Position numbers and translations under genes: made by a program | NCBI GenBank assembly: GCA_031081715.1 | Contig: JAVHMA010000005.1 | Coordinates: forward strand, 1-64,000 | Direction: 5' to 3' | Source of the DNA: Armatimonadota bacterium | GTDB lineage: Bacteria; Sysuimicrobiota; Sysuimicrobiia; Sysuimicrobiales; Humicultoraceae | Length of the DNA: 64,000 nt | Part shown: in pieces, positions 450 to 56,227 of the stretch | Position numbering within the stretch: the first letter of the stretch is position 1 | Layout of the letters: every line of letters starts with the position of its first letter | The notes under the pieces: generated by a model | Seen by the model: only the letters and a program-made list of their open reading frames with translations | Told to the model about the DNA's origin: nothing | Databases searched by the model: none

Positions 450-812
450 ATGCGCTCCGTTGTGCAGAGTCGATCCTACGATTCTGTGAAGGTCTCCTGG
501 CTCAACAGCGGTGAGGCGCTGGCCCGGTTGCGGGCGGCCGAAAGGTTGCTGGCCGAGCAAGGGGACGTCGCGGCCGTATACCTCTTTGGCTCCCTGTCCG
601 AGGATCGGGCCGTGCCTGGCAGCGACGCCGACCTCCTCATCCTCCTGGAGCGAAGCCAGCGGCGCTTCCTGGATCGTGCCGAAGAGTTCTCGCGGTGTTT
701 CTTTGGAATCGGCATGCCCGTCGAGCTGTTCTGCTACACGCGCGAGGAGGCGGAGCGCATCCCGCTGGCCCGGGCGGCCATCGACCGCGGCATCCTGCTC
801 GCGGGTCGCTGA
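450..812 (+). CDS. MNT-type nucleotidyltransferase domain protein
   Basis: This is a small protein of 120 residues with the minimal nucleotidyltransferase signature: LFGS at 45-48 followed by SDADLLILL with D59 and D61, the GS...DxD metal site. Stand-alone MNT proteins are usually paired with a HEPN protein as a toxin-antitoxin pair, the MNT partner AMPylating the toxin. No HEPN gene is visible on either side, so this copy looks orphaned. I chose the ATG at 450 because GAGAGG lies about ten bases upstream; ATG 441 and GTG 486 are alternatives. It is transcribed against the polysaccharide genes on both sides. The domain is clear; the biological role is unknown. Confidence 0.75.
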   Translation: MRSVVQSRSYDSVKVSWLNSGEALARLRAAERLLAEQGDVAAVYLFGSLSEDRAVPGSDADLLILLERSQRRFLDRAEEFSRCFFGIGMPVELFCYTREEAERIPLARAAIDRGILLAGR

Positions 813-816
813 CTTT

Positions 817-853
817 CCCGCAGAGACCGGGATTGCTGCCCGGTCTCTGCGGG
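817..853. terminator. 15-bp perfect hairpin between convergent genes
   Basis: Bases 817-831 (CCCGCAGAGACCGGG) are perfectly complementary to 839-853, with a 7-nt loop. The hairpin begins five bases after the stop of the nucleotidyltransferase gene and faces the end of the glycosyltransferase gene on the other strand. There is no clear T-run on either side, so a bidirectional, non-canonical terminator is an inference. Confidence 0.45.
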
Positions 854-1120
854 GTGGTCCGTCGGCGTCACCTCCATAGGCCTGCTGAGCGGGTTGGTCG
901 TTCACGGGCGACGCGACACACTGCGGTCCCTCTATCCGCCAGGAGGTCGGCGGGGTGCGTGTGCGCAGGTGCGTGGTCCGCGTTGTAATCTCGATGACCC
1001 TCTCCGCCTGGGTGAAACGGAGGCTGCGACCGCCATCCCGGTGCCCGACCAACCGTCTGCTCGGCGCGGCCTTCTACCGTTGCGGTGTCACCCCGAACCG
1101 TCCGTACGACCCTGCCGACC
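854..1120. other. intergenic stretch without a recognisable gene
   Basis: Between the hairpin and the glycosyltransferase stop codon I see no protein with recognisable motifs and no RNA gene. Open frames exist on both strands but read as low-complexity Arg/Pro/Ala sequence typical of GC-rich non-coding DNA. Confidence 0.5.
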
Positions 1121-2293
1121 TCATCCCCGTCGCCCGCCCACGCCCGGCCCATCGGTACGCCTCGACGCCAAGAGTCGCTCGTACAGGGCCGCGTGCGCAG
1201 CAGCACACCGGTCGGCACCGAAGCGCTCGAGGACGTGTGCCCGGGCCCGCTCGCCCATCCGCGCCCGCGACGACGGAGCCCGCAGGAGCTCGATGATCCG
1301 CCGAACCGCTGCCTGGGGCGCGCCCGGCGGCACGAGGAAGCCCGTCTCCCCATCCAAGACCACCTCCGGGACACCGCCGACCCCTGTCGCAACGGCGGGC
1401 ACCCCGGCCGCGGCCGCCTCGATGAGGGCAGCGGGCGTGCCTTCGTTGCGGGACGTGAGGACGATGACGTCGAGCGCGCGGTAGAGGGCCTCGATGTCGC
1501 CGCACCAACCCAGGAACCGCACGCGGTCCCGGAGGCCGGACCGGACCTCGGCCTCCAGCATCGTCCGCTGGGGTCCGTCGCCCGCGACCACGAAGGTCGC
1601 GCTTGGTTCGGCGTCGGCAACCTGGACCGCCACCGCCAGGAACGTACGGTGGTCCTTGATTGGCACCAGCCGACCAGCGATCCCGACGATCGGTCCGCGC
1701 TCGGGTAGGCCGAGGCGGCGACGAGCCTCGACCGCTGGGAGCCGGGACGACGCCAGGGGGTCGAGCTCATAGCCGTCGGGGATCACCTGCCATCGTTGCG
1801 CCGTACCGAGGCCGAGGGTGACGAGCTCGTCTCGTACGCGGTCGGAGACAGCGACGAGAGTGTCGCTCCATCGCGCCAGGGCCCGCTCGATGCCCACCAG
1901 CGCCCGCTCAGCGGGTGGGGAGAAGTATCCCTTGAGGACGTGGCCGTGGAACGTGTGGACCACCACTGGGACGGGGACGAGCCCGGCCGCGAGGCGACCG
2001 AGCGCTCCCGCCTTAGCCATGCGCGTGTGCACCACATCAGGACGAATGTGGCGGAGCAAGCGGAGCAGTTCCCACGCGGCGCGCGCGTCTGCCAGGGGCC
2101 GGACCGCACGCTGCAAACGCGGAAGGTGGAAGGTGGCGACACCGTCCAGCGGTAGTCGTCCCTCGCCGGGCCCTTCGGTTCCGTGGATCACGGCTTGGTC
2201 GATGCCAAGGCGGGAGAGGCGAGGCACGAGCGCCGCGAGCACCCGGGCCGGTCCCCCGACGTTCAAGCGGGTGATGATGTGGCAGACCCGCAT
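1121..2293 (-). CDS. GT4-family glycosyltransferase
   Basis: This 390-residue GT-B glycosyltransferase has an N-terminal acceptor domain starting MRVCHIITRLNVGGPARVL, a pattern common in EPS enzymes of the GT4 group. The C-terminal donor domain carries SRNEGTPAALIEAAAAG, the EX7E motif that binds the nucleotide-sugar, and ends in GETGFLVPPG. It probably adds a sugar to a lipid-linked repeat unit at the cytoplasmic membrane. The ATG at 2293 is supported by the fit of its N-terminus to the family. It overlaps the preceding glycosyltransferase gene by 31 bases, so the two are probably translated from one mRNA. Donor and acceptor sugars cannot be predicted. Confidence 0.88.
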   Translation of the reverse strand: MRVCHIITRLNVGGPARVLAALVPRLSRLGIDQAVIHGTEGPGEGRLPLDGVATFHLPRLQRAVRPLADARAAWELLRLLRHIRPDVVHTRMAKAGALGRLAAGLVPVPVVVHTFHGHVLKGYFSPPAERALVGIERALARWSDTLVAVSDRVRDELVTLGLGTAQRWQVIPDGYELDPLASSRLPAVEARRRLGLPERGPIVGIAGRLVPIKDHRTFLAVAVQVADAEPSATFVVAGDGPQRTMLEAEVRSGLRDRVRFLGWCGDIEALYRALDVIVLTSRNEGTPAALIEAAAAGVPAVATGVGGVPEVVLDGETGFLVPPGAPQAAVRRIIELLRAPSSRARMGERARAHVLERFGADRCAAAHAALYERLLASRRTDGPGVGGRRG

Positions 2294-3411
2294 CGGTCTC
2301 CCAGAGCTCGACGGTACGCGGCAAGCGTACCGTTCACCATGACCTCGATCCCGAAGGCCTCCGTGGCCCGGCGCGCTGCGGCCTCGCCCAGCCGGGCGCG
2401 GAGCCCCGGGTCGCGAGCGAGGACGAGGAGGGCTCCGGCCAACTCCTCGGCGGAATCCGGGCTCACGAGGAGCCCAGTCTCGTCGTGGGCGACCACCTCG
2501 GGGAGGGACGCCGTGCGCGAGGCCACCACGGGCAGCCTCGCGGCCTGAGCCTCGAGGGCCGCCAACCCGAAACCCTCCCCAAAGGCCGCAGAGGTGGGCA
2601 TGCAGAAGACGTCGCAGGCGTGAAGCAGTGGCCGGACGTCGCCGAGGAACCCCATGAAGCGGACCCGCTTGTCCAGGCCGAGCTCGGATGCGAGGCGCTG
2701 GAGGGGCTCGCGCAGAGGGCCATCCCCGGCCACGAGCACCCTGAGGGGCACCGCGTCGCTGAGTCGAGCCGCAGCCCTGAGCAGCGTGTCGTGACCCTTG
2801 TGGGGCACTAGCCGGGAGGCTGCCCCGACGACGCACTCCTCGGGGTCGATCCCCAGGGCTGTCCTCGCCCGCTCCCGGTCGGCGCGCGTCGCCCGCCACC
2901 CCTCGGCCCGGATGCCGTAGTGGACGACGTCCACCTGCTCTGGCCGCGCGAGCCCCCGCGCCAGCAGGAACTCCCGCACCCACCGGGAGATGGCGATGAC
3001 CCGTCGGGCCCGCCGGAGGGCAAGACCCACCGCGAGCCGCACCGGACCCCGCTCGAAGAATGGATGGGTGCCATGGAAGCTGGACACGGTTGGAACCCGG
3101 ACCAGGGCCGCCGCGAGAGCACCGTGGAGGTCGGCGTGGATGAGGTGGGTGTGGACGAGGTCGGGGGTGAACCGCTGGATGCGCCTGGCGAGCGCGGCCA
3201 CGATAGCGGGGTTGACGTCAGGGCCCGCGGGGATCGTCTCCACCGGGATGCCTCGCTCCCGCGCTGTCGCCAGGAAACGGGAGGCCTGGCCGGCGGCGAG
3301 GACCACCATGCGGATCTCGCATCCTCTGGCGGCAAGACCGGGCAGGAGGTCCAGCAGGTGTCGCTCTGATCCTGCGATCCCCGTGACCTTCTGGAGGTGG
3401 AGCAGCCTCAT
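2263..3411 (-). CDS. GT4-family glycosyltransferase
   Basis: This is a 382-residue GT-B enzyme. The N-terminus MRLLHLQKVTGIAGSERHLL is typical of GT4 enzymes, the middle has VVHYGI, and the donor domain has FGEGFGLAALEAQAA with the EX7E pair. Its ATG overlaps the TGA of the interrupted methyltransferase upstream (ATGA at 3411-3408), a translational-coupling junction that shows the upstream reading frame was once continuous. It overlaps the next glycosyltransferase by 31 bases. It presumably acts in repeat-unit assembly. Specificity is unknown. Confidence 0.88.
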   Translation of the reverse strand: MRLLHLQKVTGIAGSERHLLDLLPGLAARGCEIRMVVLAAGQASRFLATARERGIPVETIPAGPDVNPAIVAALARRIQRFTPDLVHTHLIHADLHGALAAALVRVPTVSSFHGTHPFFERGPVRLAVGLALRRARRVIAISRWVREFLLARGLARPEQVDVVHYGIRAEGWRATRADRERARTALGIDPEECVVGAASRLVPHKGHDTLLRAAARLSDAVPLRVLVAGDGPLREPLQRLASELGLDKRVRFMGFLGDVRPLLHACDVFCMPTSAAFGEGFGLAALEAQAARLPVVASRTASLPEVVAHDETGLLVSPDSAEELAGALLVLARDPGLRARLGEAAARRATEAFGIEVMVNGTLAAYRRALGDRCGSATSSPA

Positions 3412-7879: not shown

Positions 7880-8959
7880 TCAGGCGCTCCTCCCCACCTC
7901 GGCCAGGACCCGGATCACGCGGTCTGCCCAGCCGTCAAGGCCGTGGGCTTCGTTCACCCGCTCCGCAAGGGCGCCACCCACCTCCGCCCGGAGATCTGGT
8001 CCTGCCTCCCACAGCTCCCGCAGCCGCTCGGCGAGATCCGCAGCGTCGTCCTCGCGGTAGCGGAGCCGCAGCGAGAGACCTTCGGTCAGCGGGTCGAAGC
8101 AGGGGTTCGAGTAGACGACGGGGCGCCCGGCGGCCATCGCCTCGAAGACCACCTTATCGCCGGACCCCGCCCGCATTCCATTCACGAGGAGGTCGACCTC
8201 GGCGAAAAGATCGGGGATGGCAACCGGAAGGACTGCCGGCTCGACCGAGACGGCGCCGCCGCTTCCCGCCGCGAGCCGGACAACCGTCCGGGCGTAGGCC
8301 TCTTCGGCCGGTGTTGTGGCTGGGCCCACGATGCGCAACACGACGGGCACACCGGCGTCGCGTGCCTTCGAGACGCCTTTGATGATGGTGTCGAGGCCCT
8401 TTGCCGGCGACAGCCGGCCAAGGGCCAGCAGCCGCAGCACTTCGCCGCCGGGTGCCGGAGGGACGCACGTGAAGCGCGACACATCGATCCCCTGTCCTAC
8501 CTTCAGGAGCTTGGGGCTTGGGAAGGGGAACGCACCGGGGAGGGAGGTGAGCACGGCCGCCGCCGCCCGCTCTGCCCGCCGGAGGAGGGCGCTGTCACGT
8601 GGATGGGCGAACCACAGCACCCCAGGCGTGCGGTGAAGCTGAAGGAGGGGCGCGGCCAGCACGAGATACTGGGGGCACATGTGCGCCAGCAGAGCGTGCG
8701 GGCGATAGCGGCGGTGCGTCGCTTCGAGGCTTGCCAGGTACCGGAGGCCCCGGCGCACGCGCCCTGCTCCCTGCTCCTTGCCGAGGGAGACCACCTCAGC
8801 CCCGAGGTCGGACGGAACGCGGCGCACCTCGTTGGCGATGGCGACGAGGTGCTGCGAGCGCTTCGCTAAGGCCCGGATCCAGGTCACGGTGAACCCCAAG
8901 ATCGGGTCGTCGGGGTCGACGAGCTGCGTGACGAAAGCGAGGCGAAGGCCGCCGCTCAC
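7880..8959 (-). CDS. GT4-like glycosyltransferase
   Basis: This is a 359-residue GT-B protein with a recognisable donor domain (LLALGRLSPAKGLDTII, then LRIVGPATTPAEEAYA). In the usual EX7E segment it reads MRAGSGDKVVFEAMAAGRPV, so the first Glu is absent and only the second (FEAMAAG) remains. That could alter activity or simply reflect a divergent subfamily. It overlaps the fused glycosyltransferase by four bases (8956-8959) and is followed two bases later by the methyltransferase. The role is inferred from its place in the polysaccharide locus. Confidence 0.78.
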   Translation of the reverse strand: MSGGLRLAFVTQLVDPDDPILGFTVTWIRALAKRSQHLVAIANEVRRVPSDLGAEVVSLGKEQGAGRVRRGLRYLASLEATHRRYRPHALLAHMCPQYLVLAAPLLQLHRTPGVLWFAHPRDSALLRRAERAAAAVLTSLPGAFPFPSPKLLKVGQGIDVSRFTCVPPAPGGEVLRLLALGRLSPAKGLDTIIKGVSKARDAGVPVVLRIVGPATTPAEEAYARTVVRLAAGSGGAVSVEPAVLPVAIPDLFAEVDLLVNGMRAGSGDKVVFEAMAAGRPVVYSNPCFDPLTEGLSLRLRYREDDAADLAERLRELWEAGPDLRAEVGGALAERVNEAHGLDGWADRVIRVLAEVGRSA

Positions 8960-46320: not shown

Positions 46321-47109
<789 letters not shown>

Positions 47110-47179
47110 ACGGGCGGCGCCCCACCGCCGGGAGGCCCGGGCGGGAGCGACCGCCGGCCCCGGGCCCCCGCGCGCTCGC

Positions 47180-48454
47180 TCAGTACCCCAGCCAGTCGCG
47201 GCGCCGCTCGATGGTGACCTGCTCCACCAGCACGATGCGGCCACCCTTGATCTGCATGATGCGTGTGGTCGTCGAAGGCCGGTGGTCGTCGCGCGCCAGC
47301 GTGATCGGCGGCGCCAGGCCCTCGGGGTCCCAGTTCTTCAGCAGCTCGAGCGCGGAGCGCACGTTGGTCCCCACGAAGCCCCCGAGCCGGCCGTAGGTGC
47401 TCCAGCCATCCACGATCGTCTCCAGGCCGCGCCGCAACAGGTAGACGTTCAGCCAGCCGCGGATGTAGGACGCGATGTAGGGCGTCTGCGTCGTGCCCCA
47501 GGCGAACTGCGGCACCTCGCGCCCCTGGAACCGGCGGTAGGCATCGTAGATCGTCCGCATGCCGGGCACGGGTTCACCGAAGTAAGCGTGTGGGGTCGAG
47601 CCGTAGACGCCCTCCGCCGAGGTTCCGATCAGCTTGATCATGTTCTCGTCGTAGCCCCACACGTTGACGAACCAGCGCGTCCGCAGGCCGGCCTGGGCCG
47701 CGTCGCGCACGGTCACCGACGCGGAGTTCGTGGTACCGCCGAACCAGGCGAACTCGGCGCCCGCGGCGCGGATCGCGGAGACCTGCGCGCGGGCTTCCAG
47801 GGCCGTGAGCGCGACGAGCTGGTCGGGTACCACCTCGAAACCGAGCTCCCGGGCGTAGTCCTTGCCCGCGGGAATCGGCGCGCGGCCGTAGGGGTGGTCG
47901 GGGTAGACGAAGACGAACTTCGGCCGCGCGATGCGCTCGCGCTGCGCTTGCTCGCGCGCGAACTTCAGCACGGCCCGGATCTGGTCGGAGTAGGACGACA
48001 CCGGGTAGAAGTTGTACGGCGTCTTGGACGGGTCGTTCAGATGCGAGGAGTACGAGGCGGAGATGTAGGGAATCTGGTCGGCCGCGATCTGCTCCTTGAG
48101 CGCCTCGGTGTCGTTCGTGCCCCAGCCGATGATCGCCTGGACACGGTCCACGTCGCGGTACTTGCGGTAGAGGTTCAGGCTCTCGGGGATGCGGTACGCG
48201 TAGTCCGCCCACACCAGGTCGATGCGGACGCGGCCGCGGATGCCGTTCTGCACCTCGTTGATGTACCGGACGTGGTCGAGGACGCCCTTGTGGTAGTCCA
48301 CGCCGACGTCGGAGGTGGGGCCGGTCAGGTCGAAGAGCGCCCCGACCTTGATCGTCGCGGGCATCGGGGGCGGCGCCTGCGCCACCGCGGGGATGCCTGT
48401 CAGGGCCAGCAGCACAGCCAGGACGAGCGCGGTCCCGAAGACGTGCCCTCTCAC
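47180..48454 (-). CDS. livJ: periplasmic amino-acid/organic-acid binding protein (LivJ-like)
   Basis: This 424-residue protein has a signal peptide (TALVLAVLLALTGIPAVAQA) and the Peripla_BP_6 fold: TIKVGALFDLTGPTSDVGVD, then IIGWGTNDTEALKEQIAADQ. It delivers a ligand to LivHM. The GTG at 48454 has GGGGGTGG eight bases upstream. The family binds branched-chain amino acids, amides or aromatic acids; neighbouring CoA ligases favour a carboxylate. Confidence 0.88.
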   Translation of the reverse strand: MRGHVFGTALVLAVLLALTGIPAVAQAPPPMPATIKVGALFDLTGPTSDVGVDYHKGVLDHVRYINEVQNGIRGRVRIDLVWADYAYRIPESLNLYRKYRDVDRVQAIIGWGTNDTEALKEQIAADQIPYISASYSSHLNDPSKTPYNFYPVSSYSDQIRAVLKFAREQAQRERIARPKFVFVYPDHPYGRAPIPAGKDYARELGFEVVPDQLVALTALEARAQVSAIRAAGAEFAWFGGTTNSASVTVRDAAQAGLRTRWFVNVWGYDENMIKLIGTSAEGVYGSTPHAYFGEPVPGMRTIYDAYRRFQGREVPQFAWGTTQTPYIASYIRGWLNVYLLRRGLETIVDGWSTYGRLGGFVGTNVRSALELLKNWDPEGLAPPITLARDDHRPSTTTRIMQIKGGRIVLVEQVTIERRRDWLGY

Positions 48455-48517
48455 CGGGATCCACCCCCTTCTGAGGTCACGATGCGGTTGGACGGTCGCG
48501 GGGTGCTTCGGCGGACG

Positions 48518-50215
48518 CTAGCGGGCTCCCTTCCGCACGGTGACGCGGCGCACCACCAGGTCGGCGGCCCGGTTGCCGGCGGTGTTGATCGCAAAGTCCC
48601 AGCCCCACGTGTTGGCCATCGTGGCGTCGGTCAGGCGCACCGTCACCGTCCGCCAGCCGTCGCCGGGCTCGAGCCACTGCCACGGCGTGAACCGGTAGCC
48701 GCCCGTCGAGTCGTAGAGAAGGTTGAAGCCGACCTGGCCCGCAACCCCAGGCGCCAGGACCTCGAGGATGACCTCCACAGGCACCCGGCCCTCGGCGAAG
48801 TACAGGAAAGTGTCGTCGATGTCGAAGTAGACGTAGATCACCTGCCGCGCCACGCTGGTTTGCACGGCTTCCTCCCCGCCTACGTCCACGGGCTCGACGG
48901 CGCCGTTGCGCCGGGCGCGGTACGGCAGGTTGTACAGGCCCCGCTCGTCCCCCACCCGGCCGAGGCGTGCGGAGACTTCAGCGGCCCTGGCGTAGTCGCG
49001 GTCGGGCGCCACCACTGGCAGCCACGGTCCACGCGCGGCCGTGGCCCGGGCCTCCTCCGCAAACGCCGCCGGGAGGCCGCTCACCACCACGGGTGCCGGG
49101 CCGAGGCGCAGCAGCGCCCGGCCGTCGCGCACCTCCTGGTCGACCGCCGCGCCGTCGAGGGCGACCGCGCGCGCCGTGCCCGGGACGTCGAACAGCCGGC
49201 CGGGGGCCGTGGCCCAGGCGAGCGCCACGGCCTCGCCCGAGCCGTCGCGCGGGCCGAGGACCACCGCGTAGGTGTCTGGGTCGCGGATCAGGTAACCCGC
49301 GAACGGTCGGGCCAGCACCACGGAGGCGGCCCGGAGGTGAATCAGGTCACCCAGCGTGAGCGCGTGGACGCGCTCGACCCCGGCCGCCTGCGCCACCGCG
49401 AGCAGCCGGGCCCACGCCGCGGCCGACGAAGGGACACCGTCGGCCGGCGGTGTCCAGTCGATCCAGATCGCCTTGCGGGCGGGCCGTGCCCGCTCGCCGA
49501 GTACCGCCAGCGGCCGCAGCAGCATCTCGGGCCCAAACCCCTGCGGGCTGAGCGCGACCGCGTCGAAAGCGGCCGGCGCGTCCTGGATCATCCGCGTGAT
49601 GAACCCCAAATCCACGCCGCCCGGCGTGGCGAGCGCGACGCGCGCCGAGGGATCGGCGGCGCGCAGCCGGGCGCTGGCGCCGCGCAGCAGTGCGAGGTAC
49701 TCGGTACCGGTACCGCGGAACTGGGGCAGCCCGATCTGCGTCCACACCTGCCACTCGCCAACCCGTCCCCGGTACCGCGCGGCCGCCGCGGCGACGAAGC
49801 GCTCCCAGTCGGCGACCTCGCGGGGCGGCTGCCGCGAGTAGACCTCGGCGCGCGTCAGGTCCGCGCCGGTGCCGATGCTCGCCCAACGCGGCGTGTGCGC
49901 GAGCACGAGCACAACCCGCAGGCCCTGTTGCGCGGCCTCGGCCACGGCACGGTCGAGGGCGGTCCAGTCGAGCCGGCCGCGGTCCGCCTCGATCAGGCTC
50001 CAGTCCGCCAGCACTTTGACCGCGCGGACGCCGACCTCGCGGGCCGCCGGCGGCAGCGGTCCGCCGGCGAGGCCCAGCCCGAGCTGCGTGGCCGGCGGGG
50101 CGGGCGCACCGGGCCCCTGGCCCAAAACCGCAGGGGCCAGCGACGCCGTCAGGGCCACCGCGACGATGGTCGCTGCGATCACGGGTGGCCGCGAGGAGGT
50201 CCAGCCGCCGCTCAC
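48518..50215 (-). CDS. glycoside-hydrolase-like TIM-barrel protein lacking catalytic glutamates
   Basis: This 565-residue secreted protein has a signal peptide and then a clan GH-A-like barrel: VRAVKVLADWSLIEADRG, DWTALDRAVAEAAQQGLRVV, then VGEWQVWTQ. In active GH5/GH39 relatives the strand-4 motif is WxVWNEP; here it is WQVWTQIG (T159-Q160), so the acid/base Glu is missing. The strand-7 motif, usually IWxTEFG, reads IWIDWTPP (W254), so the nucleophile is also missing. A C-terminal beta domain of about 150 residues may bind glycans. The GTG at 50215 overlaps the vanZ-like stop (GTGA). Confidence 0.7.
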   Translation of the reverse strand: MSGGWTSSRPPVIAATIVAVALTASLAPAVLGQGPGAPAPPATQLGLGLAGGPLPPAAREVGVRAVKVLADWSLIEADRGRLDWTALDRAVAEAAQQGLRVVLVLAHTPRWASIGTGADLTRAEVYSRQPPREVADWERFVAAAAARYRGRVGEWQVWTQIGLPQFRGTGTEYLALLRGASARLRAADPSARVALATPGGVDLGFITRMIQDAPAAFDAVALSPQGFGPEMLLRPLAVLGERARPARKAIWIDWTPPADGVPSSAAAWARLLAVAQAAGVERVHALTLGDLIHLRAASVVLARPFAGYLIRDPDTYAVVLGPRDGSGEAVALAWATAPGRLFDVPGTARAVALDGAAVDQEVRDGRALLRLGPAPVVVSGLPAAFAEEARATAARGPWLPVVAPDRDYARAAEVSARLGRVGDERGLYNLPYRARRNGAVEPVDVGGEEAVQTSVARQVIYVYFDIDDTFLYFAEGRVPVEVILEVLAPGVAGQVGFNLLYDSTGGYRFTPWQWLEPGDGWRTVTVRLTDATMANTWGWDFAINTAGNRAADLVVRRVTVRKGAR

Positions 50216-50565
50216 GGTGCGCTCGCGCCGGCGCGGCGGCGCACGGGCAGCACCAGGGCGAGCGCGACGCCGATACTGTTCGCGATCAGATCGCGCACCT
50301 CGAAGTGCCGGTGTGGCGACAGTGCCTGGAGCGCCTCCAGCCCGAAACCGAACAGCCACGCGAGCGCGCCGGGAACCAGCGCGCCCCACCACAGCCCGCG
50401 CCCGCCGAGCGCGCGGCGCAGCAGCCAGGCCAGACCCAGGTAGGCCACTAGGTGCAGGGTCGTATCGCTGACGTCGAGGACATCGGGCGCCGGGGAGAGC
50501 GACCCCCAGGCGATGCCGAGCGTCCAGGCGGCGACGAGCAGCCAGTCGAAGGCACGAGAACCCAC
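50212..50565 (-). CDS. VanZ-like membrane protein
   Basis: This 117-residue protein has four hydrophobic segments and the VanZ pattern: DWLLVAAWTLGIAWGSLSP, then LHLVAYLGLAWLLRRALG, FGFGLEALQAL and HFEVRDLIANSIGVALAL. Some VanZ proteins give teicoplanin tolerance; most have no known role. It starts at GTG 50565 and is coupled to the barrel protein. Confidence 0.85.
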   Translation of the reverse strand: MGSRAFDWLLVAAWTLGIAWGSLSPAPDVLDVSDTTLHLVAYLGLAWLLRRALGGRGLWWGALVPGALAWLFGFGLEALQALSPHRHFEVRDLIANSIGVALALVLPVRRRAGASAP

Positions 50566-50699: not shown

Positions 50700-51161
50700 A
50701 TGTGGATGGTTCCGCGCGCCGTGACCGTCGTGGCCGGCGCGGGCGAAGGCGCGACCGACCTCAATGCGTTCGACCACGCGCTGCTGGACGCCGGCATCGC
50801 GAACCTGAACTTCCTGCGCGTGACCAGTATCTTCCCGCAGGGCGCGCGGGTGGTGCCGATGCGCCCGTTCGTCCCGGGCACGCTGATGCCCGCGGTCTAT
50901 GCCCGCATCAGCCGGCACACCCCCGGCGAGCGCATCGCGGCCGCGGTGGGCGTCGGGATCGGCGAGGAAGGGTACGGCGTCATCATGGAGCACTCGCACA
51001 CCGGCACCGCTGAGAACGCCGAGGAGATCGTCCGGAAGATGGTCGCCGACGCCATGGCCGCCCGCGGCCTGCATCTCCGGGAGATCGTGATCGGCGCGAA
51101 GGACCACGTGGTGCAGCGGATGGGCTGCGTGGTCGCCGCGGTCCTGTTCTGGCCGGACTGA
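50700..51161 (+). CDS. pdaD: pyruvoyl-dependent arginine decarboxylase
   Basis: This 153-residue PdaD family enzyme decarboxylates arginine to agmatine. The self-cleavage site is FLRVTSIFPQGA, with Ser43 becoming the pyruvoyl group. GIGEEGYGVIMEHSHTG and TAENAEEIVRKMVADAMAAR are further family features. ATG 50700 follows AGGAGG at seven bases. It is the first gene of a polyamine cassette. Confidence 0.92.
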   Translation: MWMVPRAVTVVAGAGEGATDLNAFDHALLDAGIANLNFLRVTSIFPQGARVVPMRPFVPGTLMPAVYARISRHTPGERIAAAVGVGIGEEGYGVIMEHSHTGTAENAEEIVRKMVADAMAARGLHLREIVIGAKDHVVQRMGCVVAAVLFWPD

Positions 51162-51174
51162 CGGGGGATCGGGC

Positions 51175-52023
51175 GTGAGCGCGGAGTGGATCACCGACAT
51201 GGGCGGCCCGGGCTTCGCCCACATCTACCGGGTGGACGCGCTGCTGCACGACAGCCAGTCGCCCTACCAGCGCGTGCGCGTCATCCAGAATAGCGACTTC
51301 GGGCGGATGCTCGTGCTCGACGACGCCGTCCAGACCACCGAGGGGGACGACTTCATCTACCACGAGCTGCTGGCGCACGTGCCGCTGTGCGCCCATCCCG
51401 CGCCGCGGCGGGTGCTCATCGTCGGCGGGGGCGACGGCGGGCTCCTGCGCGAGGCCCTGCGCCACCCGATCGAGCACGCGACCATGGTCGAGCTCGACCG
51501 TGCGGTCGTGGACGTCGCGCGGCGGTTCATGCCCTCGATCCCCGGCGCGGCGTTCGACGACCCCCGCGCGCGCCTGGTCATCGACGACGGCATCCGGTTC
51601 GCGCGCGAGTCGAGCGAGGCGTTCGACGTGGCGCTGGTGGACTCCACCGACCCCAAGGGGCCCTCGCTCGGCCTGTTCTCATCCGCGTTCTACGGCGACC
51701 TGGCGCGCCGGCTGGGCCCGGCCGGCGTGCTCGCGGTACAGAGCGGGTCGCCGCTCTACCAGCAGGACGTCGTGGCGATGGTGCGCCGGCACATGCGGCC
51801 CCACTTCGCGTGGGTGCGCACGTATCTCGGGACCGTTCCCACCTACCCCGGCACGCTCTGGTCGTTCACGATCGGCTCGCAGGCGCGCGACCCGGCCGCG
51901 GTCGGGGCCGACGAGGTCGCCTCGCGCTTGGCGGGCATGGCGACCCGCTACTACACGGCCAGCCGCCACGCGGCACTGTTCGACCTGCCGCCCTTCGTCC
52001 GCGAGGCCGTCGGGCCGGACTAG
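51175..52023 (+). CDS. speE: spermidine synthase family aminopropyltransferase
   Basis: This 282-residue enzyme has DDFIYHELLAHVPLCAHP, the SAM-like site VLIVGGGDGGLLREAL, a VELDRAVVDVARRF acidic end, and the catalytic DSTDPKGPS. It transfers aminopropyl from decarboxylated SAM to a polyamine or to agmatine. The gene starts at GTG 51175, 13 bases after pdaD. No SAM decarboxylase is in the window. Confidence 0.9.
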   Translation: MSAEWITDMGGPGFAHIYRVDALLHDSQSPYQRVRVIQNSDFGRMLVLDDAVQTTEGDDFIYHELLAHVPLCAHPAPRRVLIVGGGDGGLLREALRHPIEHATMVELDRAVVDVARRFMPSIPGAAFDDPRARLVIDDGIRFARESSEAFDVALVDSTDPKGPSLGLFSSAFYGDLARRLGPAGVLAVQSGSPLYQQDVVAMVRRHMRPHFAWVRTYLGTVPTYPGTLWSFTIGSQARDPAAVGADEVASRLAGMATRYYTASRHAALFDLPPFVREAVGPD

Positions 52024-52026
52024 CCG

Positions 52027-52845
52027 ATGCCGTTCCTGGGCGCCCGCTCGCACGCACGGCCGGCGGCCGTGGTGCTCGGCGCACCCTACGACGCCACGGC
52101 CACGCACCGCCGCGGGGCGCGCGCCGCGCCCGCCGCGATCCGCTGGGCATCCGACGCGATCGAGACCTACAGCCCGCTGCGGGGCCGCGACCTGGACGAT
52201 CTCGCCCTGGCCGATGCCGGCGACGTGGATCTCGACGGCTGCACACCGGAGGCCGCGGTGGCCCGGGTGCGCGACGCGATCGCGGCCGCACCCGGGCTGC
52301 CGCTACTGCTGGGCGGGGAGCACACGGTCACCGCAGGCGCCGTGACCGCGCTCGCCGCCAGACACCCGGACCTGGCGGTCATCGCGGTGGACGCCCACCT
52401 GGACCTGCGGGAGGAGTACGACGGCCACCGGTGGTCGCACGCCACGACACTGCGGCGGGTCGGCGAGCTCGTCGGGTTCGAGCGTCTGGTCGTGCTGGGC
52501 GCGCGATCGGGCACGCGCGCCGAGTGGGCGGCCGCGCATGCGCTGGCCCACTGCGCCCGCACCGGCGCGCTGCCCGACCACGTCTGGGCCGGTCTCGCCG
52601 ACCGGCCGCTCTACCTCTCGGTGGACGTGGACGGGTTCGACCCCTCGGTGGCGCCGGGCACCGGCAACCCCGAGCCGCTGGGGCTGTCGGTATCCGATGT
52701 CGTCGCGCTGGTGGAGGTGCTGCGCCGCGGCCGCGTGGTCGGCTGTGACCTCGTCGAGGTCAGTCCCCCGCACGATCCCTCGGGCCAGACCGTCATGCTC
52801 GCGGCCTGGCTCGCTCGCGAGCTGCTGCTGGCGTTCTGCGGCTGA
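52027..52845 (+). CDS. speB: agmatinase/ureohydrolase
   Basis: This 272-residue arginase-family enzyme has the two-metal ligands in GGEHT, DAHLDL, SHATTLRR and SVDVDGFDPSVAPGTGNPEP. It hydrolyses agmatine or aminopropylagmatine, releasing urea. ATG 52027 lies three bases after the speE stop. The order pdaD-speE-speB fits a route from arginine to spermidine. Confidence 0.92.
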   Translation: MPFLGARSHARPAAVVLGAPYDATATHRRGARAAPAAIRWASDAIETYSPLRGRDLDDLALADAGDVDLDGCTPEAAVARVRDAIAAAPGLPLLLGGEHTVTAGAVTALAARHPDLAVIAVDAHLDLREEYDGHRWSHATTLRRVGELVGFERLVVLGARSGTRAEWAAAHALAHCARTGALPDHVWAGLADRPLYLSVDVDGFDPSVAPGTGNPEPLGLSVSDVVALVEVLRRGRVVGCDLVEVSPPHDPSGQTVMLAAWLARELLLAFCG

Positions 52846-53837: not shown

Positions 53838-54128
53838 CTACAGCGAGCCCGGGCAGGCGCAAGGGCTGGCCCCGCACTTGGGGCAGCCGGCGGCGTATCG
53901 GGACGCGGCGCGGGCCACATCGACGCCAGCCAGGGAGGCGACCGTGGCCGTCCAGGCCAGCACGTCGCTGACCTCCACCTCCAACCGCGCGGGGTCGCGA
54001 TCGCGCAGCGCCCGCGCGAGCTCGCCCACCTCCTCCACGAGCCAGCGGAACGCGGCATCGGTGCCCCGCGCCCGGTCGCGGCCCCCGTAGGTCAGCTCGA
54101 TTTGCCGCTGGAACTCGGCCAGGGTCAC
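53838..54128 (-). CDS. MazG-like nucleotide pyrophosphohydrolase with Cys tail
   Basis: This 96-residue protein has the MazG helix LVEEVGELARALRDRD and VEVSDVLAWTATVASLAGVD, which supply Mg-binding Glu/Asp residues. It ends in CPKCGASPCACPG, a possible metal-binding tail. It may hydrolyse abnormal NTPs. The GTG at 54128 overlaps the RseB-like gene stop (GTGA). Confidence 0.82.
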   Translation of the reverse strand: MTLAEFQRQIELTYGGRDRARGTDAAFRWLVEEVGELARALRDRDPARLEVEVSDVLAWTATVASLAGVDVARAASRYAAGCPKCGASPCACPGSL

Positions 54129-55162
54129 GGCGCCGCCTTCCCGACGGCGGATGCGAGCGCGATCAACTCTGCCAGCGGCAGCGGGCCAACCAGGGTCAGG
54201 CGCGTGCGCGGGCCGTCCCACAGCACCAGGCGCATGCTGCCCACCACGGCGGTGCGCGCCCCCGGCCCCAGCGCCGCCACGGCATCGCCGCGGCCGGACG
54301 GGCCGAAGCGGCCGGCCGGCGCCACGAACAGCGAGATCACCCGCGCCCCGTCGGAGTACTGCACGTGCGCGGCCAGCACCGGACCGTCGCGGACAGGCAC
54401 ACCGCCCAGGAGCGCGAACCCGCCGGGCAGCGTCTGCGGTACCCGCACGGGGAAGCCGACGCCGCGCTCCAGCACCGCGAGCGGGAGCACCGGGCCGGTC
54501 ACTTCGGCCTGCGTGACGATCCGCGCCCCGGCCGGGGGCCGGGGCTGGAACAGGGCGGGCGGCAGGTTCAGACCGAAGCTGATGCGCGTGAAGTACGCGG
54601 TCAGGACGAGCCCGTCCGCCGGGTCGCGCTCCTCGACGCGCAGGGCCACGCCGGTCGTACGGTCGATCCACAGCCGGCGCTCACGACCGCCGGCGCGCGG
54701 CCACAGGCTGATGACTGCGGTCGGCCGGCCGATCACCTCCTCGGTACCGAGCCACCGCGCCCCGTAGCGCTCGATCGGGAAGCTCAGCGGCGCGTCGGTC
54801 ATCGGCCCGAGGGAGGGACCCACGAACACCATATGGAGGCGCGGCTCGTAGTGCCAGGCCTGCAGGCCGTCGTCGATCAGGATGCGGCCGGCCACACCTT
54901 CGGGCGAAAGGAAGTCGAGTCGGGTGCGAGCGGGCCGCTTGTGCGCCTCGTTGAGCGTGACCGTCTCCATCTCGGCGCCGCGGAGCACGGAGAGGATTTT
55001 CGTGCCCTCGTAGTCCACGATCTGCGGGGCGAGCGCCGCGTGCCGCACCACCTGCTCGATGGTCACGCCGTCCGGGGTGGGCTGCCGCGGCCCGGTCTGG
55101 GAGGCCACGGGTGCGGCGGTCGTCAGCACCGCGGCCAGGGCCAGCAGCGCCAGCCAGCTCAC
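54125..55162 (-). CDS. RseB/MucB-like anti-sigma modulator
   Basis: This 345-residue secreted protein has a signal peptide (LALLALAAVLTTAAPVASQ) and a MucB/RseB-type N-domain (DYEGTKILSVLRGAEMETVT, then GRILIDDGLQAWHYEPRLHM, RLWIDRTTGVALRVEERD). The C-domain has LPGGFALLGGVPVRDGPVLA and LVGPLPLAELIALASAVG. It is probably a periplasmic partner of the anti-sigma factor encoded just before it (GTGA overlap at 55162). Confidence 0.78.
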   Translation of the reverse strand: MSWLALLALAAVLTTAAPVASQTGPRQPTPDGVTIEQVVRHAALAPQIVDYEGTKILSVLRGAEMETVTLNEAHKRPARTRLDFLSPEGVAGRILIDDGLQAWHYEPRLHMVFVGPSLGPMTDAPLSFPIERYGARWLGTEEVIGRPTAVISLWPRAGGRERRLWIDRTTGVALRVEERDPADGLVLTAYFTRISFGLNLPPALFQPRPPAGARIVTQAEVTGPVLPLAVLERGVGFPVRVPQTLPGGFALLGGVPVRDGPVLAAHVQYSDGARVISLFVAPAGRFGPSGRGDAVAALGPGARTAVVGSMRLVLWDGPRTRLTLVGPLPLAELIALASAVGKAAP

Positions 55163-55647
55163 CGGCGTCCCCCGCGCGGGTCCTCGCCGGCCAGGCGCAG
55201 GTTGGCGTCGGTCGAAACGAGCCCGATGTAGGCCCGATCGAGGAACGGGTCCTCGGCTGCGCTCTGCACCGCGGCGCGCATGAAGAGGTCTGGGCCGACC
55301 TCGGCCGCGCGCAGCCGCGTCTGGTGGTCGCGGACAATCGGGACCGCCACCAGGACCACGGCCAGCGCCGCGGCCGCCAGGGCCAGGGTCGGCCGCGGCC
55401 GCCCGAGCCACCAGGGCCTGGTCGGCTGCGCGAGCTTGGCGAGCACCCCGGCCTCGAAGTCCGGGGGCGGGGCCGGCGCGTCCAGCGCGCCGAGGAGGCG
55501 CTTGGTCTCGCGGAAGGCCTCCAGCCGTGTCTGACACGACGGGCAGCCATCCAGGTGCCGCCTGATCTCGTCGGCCTCCGCCGGGGAGATCTCGGCGTCG
55601 AGGTAGGCACTCAGCTCGCGCTCGAACGGGTGGCTCACTTCAGGCAC
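55159..55647 (-). CDS. anti-sigma factor with zf-HC2 domain
   Basis: This 162-residue protein has a zinc-binding anti-sigma start, RRHLDGCPSC, followed by a membrane helix (LALAAAALAVVLVAVPIV) and a periplasmic tail. It probably sequesters the ECF sigma factor encoded upstream. It starts with GTG 55647 (or 55638) and overlaps the sigma stop. Confidence 0.85.
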   Translation of the reverse strand: MPEVSHPFERELSAYLDAEISPAEADEIRRHLDGCPSCQTRLEAFRETKRLLGALDAPAPPPDFEAGVLAKLAQPTRPWWLGRPRPTLALAAAALAVVLVAVPIVRDHQTRLRAAEVGPDLFMRAAVQSAAEDPFLDRAYIGLVSTDANLRLAGEDPRGGRR

Positions 55648-56227
55648 CTGCCAGACTTCGTCGGATCGACCCCAGGCGCTCGCGCAGCGCGCGGCGCGCC
55701 CGGTGCAACCGTGACTTCACGGTCCCGATGGGGACACGCATCATGGACGCGATCTCCTCGTACGCGTACCCCTCCACGTCGGCGAGGACGACGACCATCC
55801 GGAGGTCCGGCGCCAGCCCGAGCAACGCCTGCTGGATGCGGCGGTCGATGGACGCGTCCAGGACCCGCTGCTCGACGTCTGTGGCCGGGTCCGCCCGTTC
55901 CCGCTGCACTTCGCCCGAGGCGGTCGCGAGCGGCTCATCGAGCGAGTGCAGACGGACGCCGCGCCGGCGCCGGAGCAGGTCGATGTACAGGTTGGAGACG
56001 ATCCGGTACAGCCATCCCTCGAGCTGCGCCTCCGGGTCGATCCGGCTCCACGCCCGCCAGACGCGGATGAACGCCTCCTGCGCCAGGTCTCGCGCATCGG
56101 CTTCATTGCCAGCCATCCGATAGGCGATCGCGTACACGTGCCGTCCGTAGCGCCCGACGAGCCGCTCGAACTCCTCGCGATCGACCGGGCCCGGCGCCGG
56201 GCCCCTGAGCTTCTGGCGTCCCGCCAA
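55640..56227 (-). CDS. ECF-family RNA polymerase sigma factor
   Basis: This 195-residue sigma-70 group 4 factor has region 2 (RDLAQEAFIRVWRAW, then LYRIVSNLYIDLLRRRRGVR) and region 4 (YAYEEIASMMRVPIGTVKS followed by RLHRARRALRERL). Together with its anti-sigma and RseB-like partners it forms an envelope-stress module. The start is a TTG (56227) directly beside GGAGG, so it is uncertain. Confidence 0.9.
   Translation of the reverse strand: MAGRQKLRGPAPGPVDREEFERLVGRYGRHVYAIAYRMAGNEADARDLAQEAFIRVWRAWSRIDPEAQLEGWLYRIVSNLYIDLLRRRRGVRLHSLDEPLATASGEVQRERADPATDVEQRVLDASIDRRIQQALLGLAPDLRMVVVLADVEGYAYEEIASMMRVPIGTVKSRLHRARRALRERLGSIRRSLAGA

Follow-up and report, generated by a model that had tools for sequence, protein, structure and literature searches.

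The minus-strand gene at 48518..50215 of the window (the whole stretch of DNA that was analyzed, 64,000 nucleotides) appears to encode a secreted PslG-like pseudoglycosidase, which has lost both catalytic glutamates, has been kept as a binding or scaffold part, and most likely binds polysaccharide without cutting it; we put the probability of this reading at about 0.6. Loss of canonical hydrolysis is well supported. An earlier, sequence-only reading of this DNA had proposed a pseudoenzyme, and this part of it stands: both glutamates are lost family-wide, the reading frames are open, selection is purifying, and the family forms one clade apart from its intact relatives. The glycan binding proposed at the same time has indirect support, which comes from the fold, from the domains that accompany the C-terminal module in other proteins, and from the module's weak likeness to carbohydrate-binding modules (CBMs), and it is from these that we infer that the pseudoglycosidase binds glycan.

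The gene and its parts

The gene coincides exactly with one ORF on the minus strand (50215 to 48518) that encodes 565 aa, with a GTG start codon at 50215-50213 and the stop at 48520-48518. The features of the gene and of two neighboring stretches are:

48518..50215, minus strand: PslG-like pseudoglycosidase, probably secreted, whole gene (ORF, family search)
50120..50215, minus strand: signal-peptide-like N terminus, about residues 1-32, predicted end approximate (hydropathy, 28 of 28 members)
49301..50092, minus strand: clan GH-A barrel, about residues 42-305, modeled with eight strands (profile and structure matches)
49736..49741, minus strand: T159-Q160 at the acid/base Asn-Glu position (alignments)
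49454..49459, minus strand: D253-W254 at the nucleophile Thr-Glu position (alignments; exact register alignment-dependent)
49031..49300, minus strand: PslG-like small beta domain, about residues 306-395 (model, and structure match to residue 381)
48521..49030, minus strand: C-terminal all-beta module, residues 396-565, best conserved part, putatively CBM-like
50212..50565, minus strand: VanZ-like gene (Pfam), whose stop overlaps the pseudoglycosidase start by 4 bases (GTGA)
50700..52845, plus strand: divergent genes for a pyruvoyl arginine decarboxylase, a spermidine-synthase-like protein and an agmatinase/arginase-like protein (Pfam)

A hydrophobic, signal-peptide-like N-terminal stretch was found in all 28 family members by a simple hydropathy test that had no negative control, and the pseudoglycosidase is probably secreted. 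The secreted glycosidase fold described in the sequence-only reading is retained, with a clan GH-A barrel recognized both by profile and by Foldseek behind the signal-peptide-like N terminus. What had been called a C-terminal beta domain is beta but consists of two parts, a small PslG-like domain (about residues 306-395) and an extra module (about residues 396-565). A 1234-residue antisense open frame (46739-50443 of the window, plus strand) spans the pseudoglycosidase gene and its neighbors; antisense frames are open in the G+C-rich DNA of several family loci, and this one, which can mislead strand assignment, very probably just reflects the high G+C content.

PslG is the nearest solved relative

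A sequence profile of the 28 members identified PslG as the best solved relative (E 3.1e-12), and in this alignment QVWNEPNL of PslG lies opposite qvwtalsL of the family, at the same acid/base position; the catalytic residues of PslG are given as Glu165 and Glu276 (PMC7237758). The structure model was built from 3 sequences and has a mean pLDDT of 57.5, with eight barrel strands visible. Its best Foldseek match was also PslG (E 1.6e-15), and the PslG structure match spans residues 38-381, that is, the barrel and the small beta domain. By VIA-align, the model scored Z values of 24.7 with a GH164 enzyme, 24.4 with another GH39 enzyme and 23.3 with PslG, and because these lie so close together the fold alone cannot choose the GH family. 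When the family profile was aligned by hhalign with a profile of five intact relatives, the probability was 99.7% (E 1.7e-25).

The PslG-like barrel and small beta domain are thus recognizable by profile and fold in a window protein whose Pfam and NCBIfam matches to named families (GH42, GH39, GH10, GH35) all lie below the curated cut-offs: 18.2 bits against 21 for GH42, 14.8 against 26 for Pfam GH39, and 18.7 against 500 for NCBIfam GH35. Over the 28 members, matches were obtained to GH42 in 15 (best E 2e-05), to GH39 in five, to GH10 in four, to Pfam GH35 in one and to NCBIfam GH35 in 16, and they mostly cover the first barrel strands. Since these library matches carry enzyme names (beta-galactosidase, GH39, GH35), automatic naming would credit the protein with an activity that is very probably absent.

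Both catalytic glutamates are replaced across the family

We searched 43 genomes of the phylum, all from one order, which together with the G+C-rich DNA would fit Sysuimicrobiota (CSP1-3); this phylum is described in PMC11604079 as having one class, one order and five families, separate from Armatimonadota. In 28 of the 43, a copy was present that is nearly full-length (E 2.5e-210 or better) and free of internal stops. It was absent from the other 15, several of which are incomplete drafts; of the 28 genomes with completeness of 90% or more and contamination of 5% or less, 20 gave a match, that of G020 being a marginal barrel match. Scanning viral contigs with the family profile gave no relative, and the scan of genome contigs gave two.

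The sequence-only reading had placed T159-Q160 where Asn-Glu is expected and W254 where the nucleophile Glu is expected, and both assignments are borne out by intact relatives. The acid/base strand reads WQVWTQI here and WEIWNEP in intact relatives from the same phylum, and the nucleophile strand reads KAIWIDW here and KPIWITE in the intact proteins, with the register of the latter depending on the alignment: an ungapped strand beta-7 gives W254, hhalign stops at D253, and a joint MAFFT alignment leaves a gap, none of the three placing a Glu there. No family member has Glu at residue 160 (Asp in one and Gln in four of the 28) or at residue 254 (Trp in 21, Asp in one, L022). Sequencing error was rejected as an explanation, as 28 assemblies agree. 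We also considered a myrosinase-like active site. In myrosinase the acid/base is replaced by Gln; here residue 160 is Gln in four of the 28 members only, and the nucleophile is gone as well.

Alternative acidic residues in the active site had been named as the observation that would speak against a pseudoenzyme. Across the 28 members there is no conserved pair of acids on the catalytic face; yet D202, located after beta-5, is invariant (28/28), residue 253, adjoining the nucleophile position, is acidic in 20 of 28 (Glu in 15, Asp in five), and the model is too weak to place side chains. In one family, f7 (L022-L028), the acid/base strand reads WQVEP or WQIEP, with Glu158 and Pro159, so that all seven members have a Glu in the same strand as the lost acid/base. 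The invariant D202 together with the mostly acidic residue 253 leaves room for new chemistry, and the protein might still be an enzyme that works through these two residues, or through Glu158 in f7, perhaps in a different reaction. The purifying selection on the barrel would also fit this proposal, which we nevertheless consider improbable: no acid pair is conserved on the catalytic face, residue 253 is S, Y, Q, G or N in eight of 28 members, residue 158 is Trp in 21 of 28, residue 71 is Asn in four of 28, and the extra conservation of the catalytic face has been lost, as described below.

Relatives outside the family keep the glutamates

As a comparison, we read 28 ORFs outside the family, taken from 20 fetched stretches (a selection of the non-family matches) and five earlier loci, with some near-copies among them (L060/L061). 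All 28 have the acid/base Glu, and 26 also have the nucleophile Glu (partly read by eye), the exceptions being L172, which has Asp, and L174, whose frame ends before the position. In L172 (G351, ORF 488-2380, plus strand), beta-4 carries VESEA, with Glu at 158 and 160, and beta-7 carries IWAGDA, with Asp in place of the nucleophile Glu; judging from these motifs, it is possible that L172 has a half-way or alternative active site.

Genes with intact motifs of the PslG-like kind occur in at least four of the genomes that carry the dead copy (G002, G005, G008 and G009). In G009 and G002 a tandem PslG-like pair with intact catalytic motifs (L060 and L061) lies elsewhere in the genome from the dead copy. 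A separate barrel match (E 1e-3 or better) was found in seven of the 28 carrier genomes, in a family-profile search that is not a full census of glycosidases. A general role as decoy for an active PslG-like enzyme was rejected on this count, four of the seven having been read.

A quick tree built on 53 rows places the family, by itself, on one side of a single branch (SH-aLRT 99). The root of this tree is not fixed, several outside rows sit on long branches, and three of the 28 outside ORFs (L159, L160, L165) were left out by the trimming rule, their Glu positions being read separately. Because the family forms one clade, a single loss is suggested, and both glutamates were probably lost once, in the ancestor of a clade-specific family.

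The family is under purifying selection, and conservation has moved

Among the 12 pairs with the lowest dS, the ten closest (dS 0.10-0.64) gave dN/dS values of 0.13-0.27 for the barrel and 0.05-0.31 for the C-terminal module, and these pairs are not independent because they are drawn from three small groups of relatives. The last two pairs (L010/L018 and L009/L018) gave 0.47-1.08, values that we distrust, since dS is underestimated in G+C-rich pairs that have diverged very far. The 28-member family therefore combines a glycosidase fold without catalytic residues with a lineage under purifying selection. That the gene is simply decaying without function could account for its absence from 15 of 43 genomes and for its being missing in G020 between neighbors that are kept, but 28 assemblies have open frames, dN/dS in close pairs is well below 1, and the C-terminal module is strongly conserved, and we regard decay as barely credible.

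In mean conservation over the 28 members, the C-terminal module scored 0.695 and the barrel 0.562, with 0.452 for the stretch that links them. When the C-terminal ends of the barrel strands, which form the catalytic face, were compared with the rest, conservation was 0.484 versus 0.399 in the intact relatives and 0.544 versus 0.572 in the pseudoglycosidase family, an approximate comparison since the strand ends were taken from the weak model. The place of conservation thus seems, on this approximate measure, to have moved off the catalytic face in the pseudoglycosidase family.

The C-terminal module may be an undescribed carbohydrate-binding module

Residues 396-565 gave no sequence match in the PDB, and Pfam returned nothing convincing for them (best E 0.022, in at most three of the 28 members). 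The conserved aromatics of the module include W512, W521 and W539. Across 386 genomes, the module was found in the 28 family members and, outside the phylum, in four proteins from three genomes, with one of these four matches marginal (2.7e-4). G007, which carries a full-length copy, has the module once more in a fragment cut off by a contig edge (G007:C72:2-475). By Pfam, the four outside carriers have pectate-lyase-like and CBM9 domains, DUF5010 and GH99-like domains, a GH42-like domain, and no match, respectively, so that three of the four pair the module with domains of carbohydrate-enzyme type, as a separable module with differing partners.

The model of the module is poor (pLDDT 49.4). 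Most of its top VIA-align rows are carbohydrate-binding modules, interspersed with other beta-sandwich domains, and the scores reach a Z of 9.1, where a best Z of 7-8 is usual even without a true relative; the first Foldseek rows are latent TGF-beta chains. The low-confidence model shows a weak fold likeness to jelly-roll CBMs (CBM22, 16, 29, 4 and 15; Z about 7.6-8.7), from which the module differs in matching no sequence in the PDB or Pfam. Our best guess from this model is that it is a carbohydrate-binding module, and its appearance as an undescribed one is directly testable.

The same data bear on whether the dead barrel could instead be a protein-binding scaffold, a receptor or an inhibitor, and not a glycan binder, a proposal that we regard as a minority possibility. 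There are precedents, in that beta-Klotho binds FGF21 and heparanase-2 is thought to restrain heparanase-1 (as described in PMC8465397 and PMC12406646, respectively). If the protein worked through some site other than the old sugar cleft, its catalytic face should show no extra conservation, as is the case, and at least four carrier genomes have intact PslG-like genes. Set against this, there is no conserved candidate partner, with a separate barrel match in only seven of 28 carriers, and the C-terminal module accompanies carbohydrate-enzyme domains elsewhere.

The gene lies beside an arginine decarboxylase gene

The VanZ-like gene that overlaps the pseudoglycosidase start was found at three of 27 orthologous loci (tblastn; several contigs end early). 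The divergent polyamine genes (50700-52845) form a compact set upstream of the pseudoglycosidase. A decarboxylase gene lies beside the orthologue on the opposite strand at 26 of 27 loci, the exception being L053, which has a trehalose-synthesis gene upstream; at L040, L046 and L047 the midpoints of the two genes are 2.6-3.3 kb apart, and at L046 a DNA ligase gene separates them. An ABC-transporter binding-protein gene comes next after the pseudoglycosidase in the window and just downstream at 10 of 27 loci, several contigs ending early.

The decarboxylase was matched in 14 of the 15 genomes that lack the pseudoglycosidase (weakly in G003), and none of the 13 decarboxylase loci fetched from such genomes holds a family member. 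In G020 (L151, decarboxylase 8248-8703), the binding-protein gene adjoins the decarboxylase, the pseudoglycosidase is missing and the flanking gene order is kept, which would be either a natural deletion or the state before a gain. Taken together, the position is old, and some lineages have either lost the gene or branched off before it was gained. Its place next to the decarboxylase may reflect common regulation or merely an inherited order.

A polysaccharide gene cluster around the pseudoglycosidase was considered and rejected, as no polysaccharide-synthesis cluster was seen among ten neighbors at six loci. A GGDEF protein and a trehalose-synthesis gene were found at one locus each, and the rest were of metabolic, tRNA-synthetase, peptidase, NUDIX and DNA-ligase types. 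On the minus strand at 54125-56227, the window also contains an ECF sigma factor gene and, behind it, two ORFs, one anti-sigma-like and one MucB/RseB-like (Pfam identified the first and last of the three), and matches lie near the pseudoglycosidase in many orthologous loci.

A broader proposal, which we offer as speculation and think unlikely, is that this is a phylum-specific secreted family, combining an emptied PslG-type barrel with an undescribed CBM, whose place next to the polyamine genes has been retained from an early point in the history of the phylum, perhaps because the cell envelope or matrix uses polyamines together with the bound, anionic surface polymer.

Proposed mechanism and comparison with known systems

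In the reading that we favor, a polysaccharide-binding pseudoglycosidase, an ancestral PslG-like barrel would have lost both catalytic glutamates in the ancestor of the clade, and the emptied barrel would then have been retained as a binding or scaffold part. Once the protein was exported, its C-terminal module (396-565) would probably be the main gripping part on the polysaccharide, the barrel and small beta domain would provide a second, looser contact or a rigid scaffold, and the polysaccharide would be held without being cut. Such a protein might serve in building a matrix, in attachment to surfaces or in protecting the polymer. Such a division of labor between module and barrel is something we infer from the evidence above.

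The family offers a clean example, from a poorly known bacterial group, of a glycosidase that has become noncatalytic in all members and has been retained; some of the same genomes contain intact relatives, which serve as controls. Groups of glycosidase-derived pseudoenzymes are already known, and the possibly new binding module is the most interesting part. Within the open literature, our search found no inactive PslG-like or GH39 protein, most subscription journals being outside its scope.

PslG of Pseudomonas aeruginosa, a GH39-like hydrolase (PDB 5bx9, 4zn2, 9g17), shares the barrel and the small C-terminal beta domain; the protein described here differs in that both catalytic Glu are replaced, an extra C-terminal module is present, the distribution is clade-specific, and no exopolysaccharide operon was seen at the loci scanned. 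Glycosidase-derived binding proteins as such are treated as a known kind in a review (PMC7828330). PMC3526467 describes GH5_30 as a whole subfamily without catalytic residues and also reports fusions of inactive GH5 modules with other modules; the likeness is that of a whole clan GH-A group lacking catalytic residues, with a dead barrel joined to modules, but GH5 is another GH family, and we liken the two by description and not by sequence comparison. Heparanase-2, which is GH79-related, resembles our case in being a glycosidase-fold pseudoenzyme that has been retained alongside an active relative and that reportedly binds the glycan, but it is an animal protein and is described as retaining the acid/base Glu (PMC12406646); bacterial heparanases are only distant fold matches to the pseudoglycosidase by VIA-align. 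Beta-Klotho, which is GH1-related, likewise uses glycosidase-like domains for binding and not for cutting, but it is described as an animal membrane receptor that binds a protein with a sugar-mimicking motif (PMC8465397).
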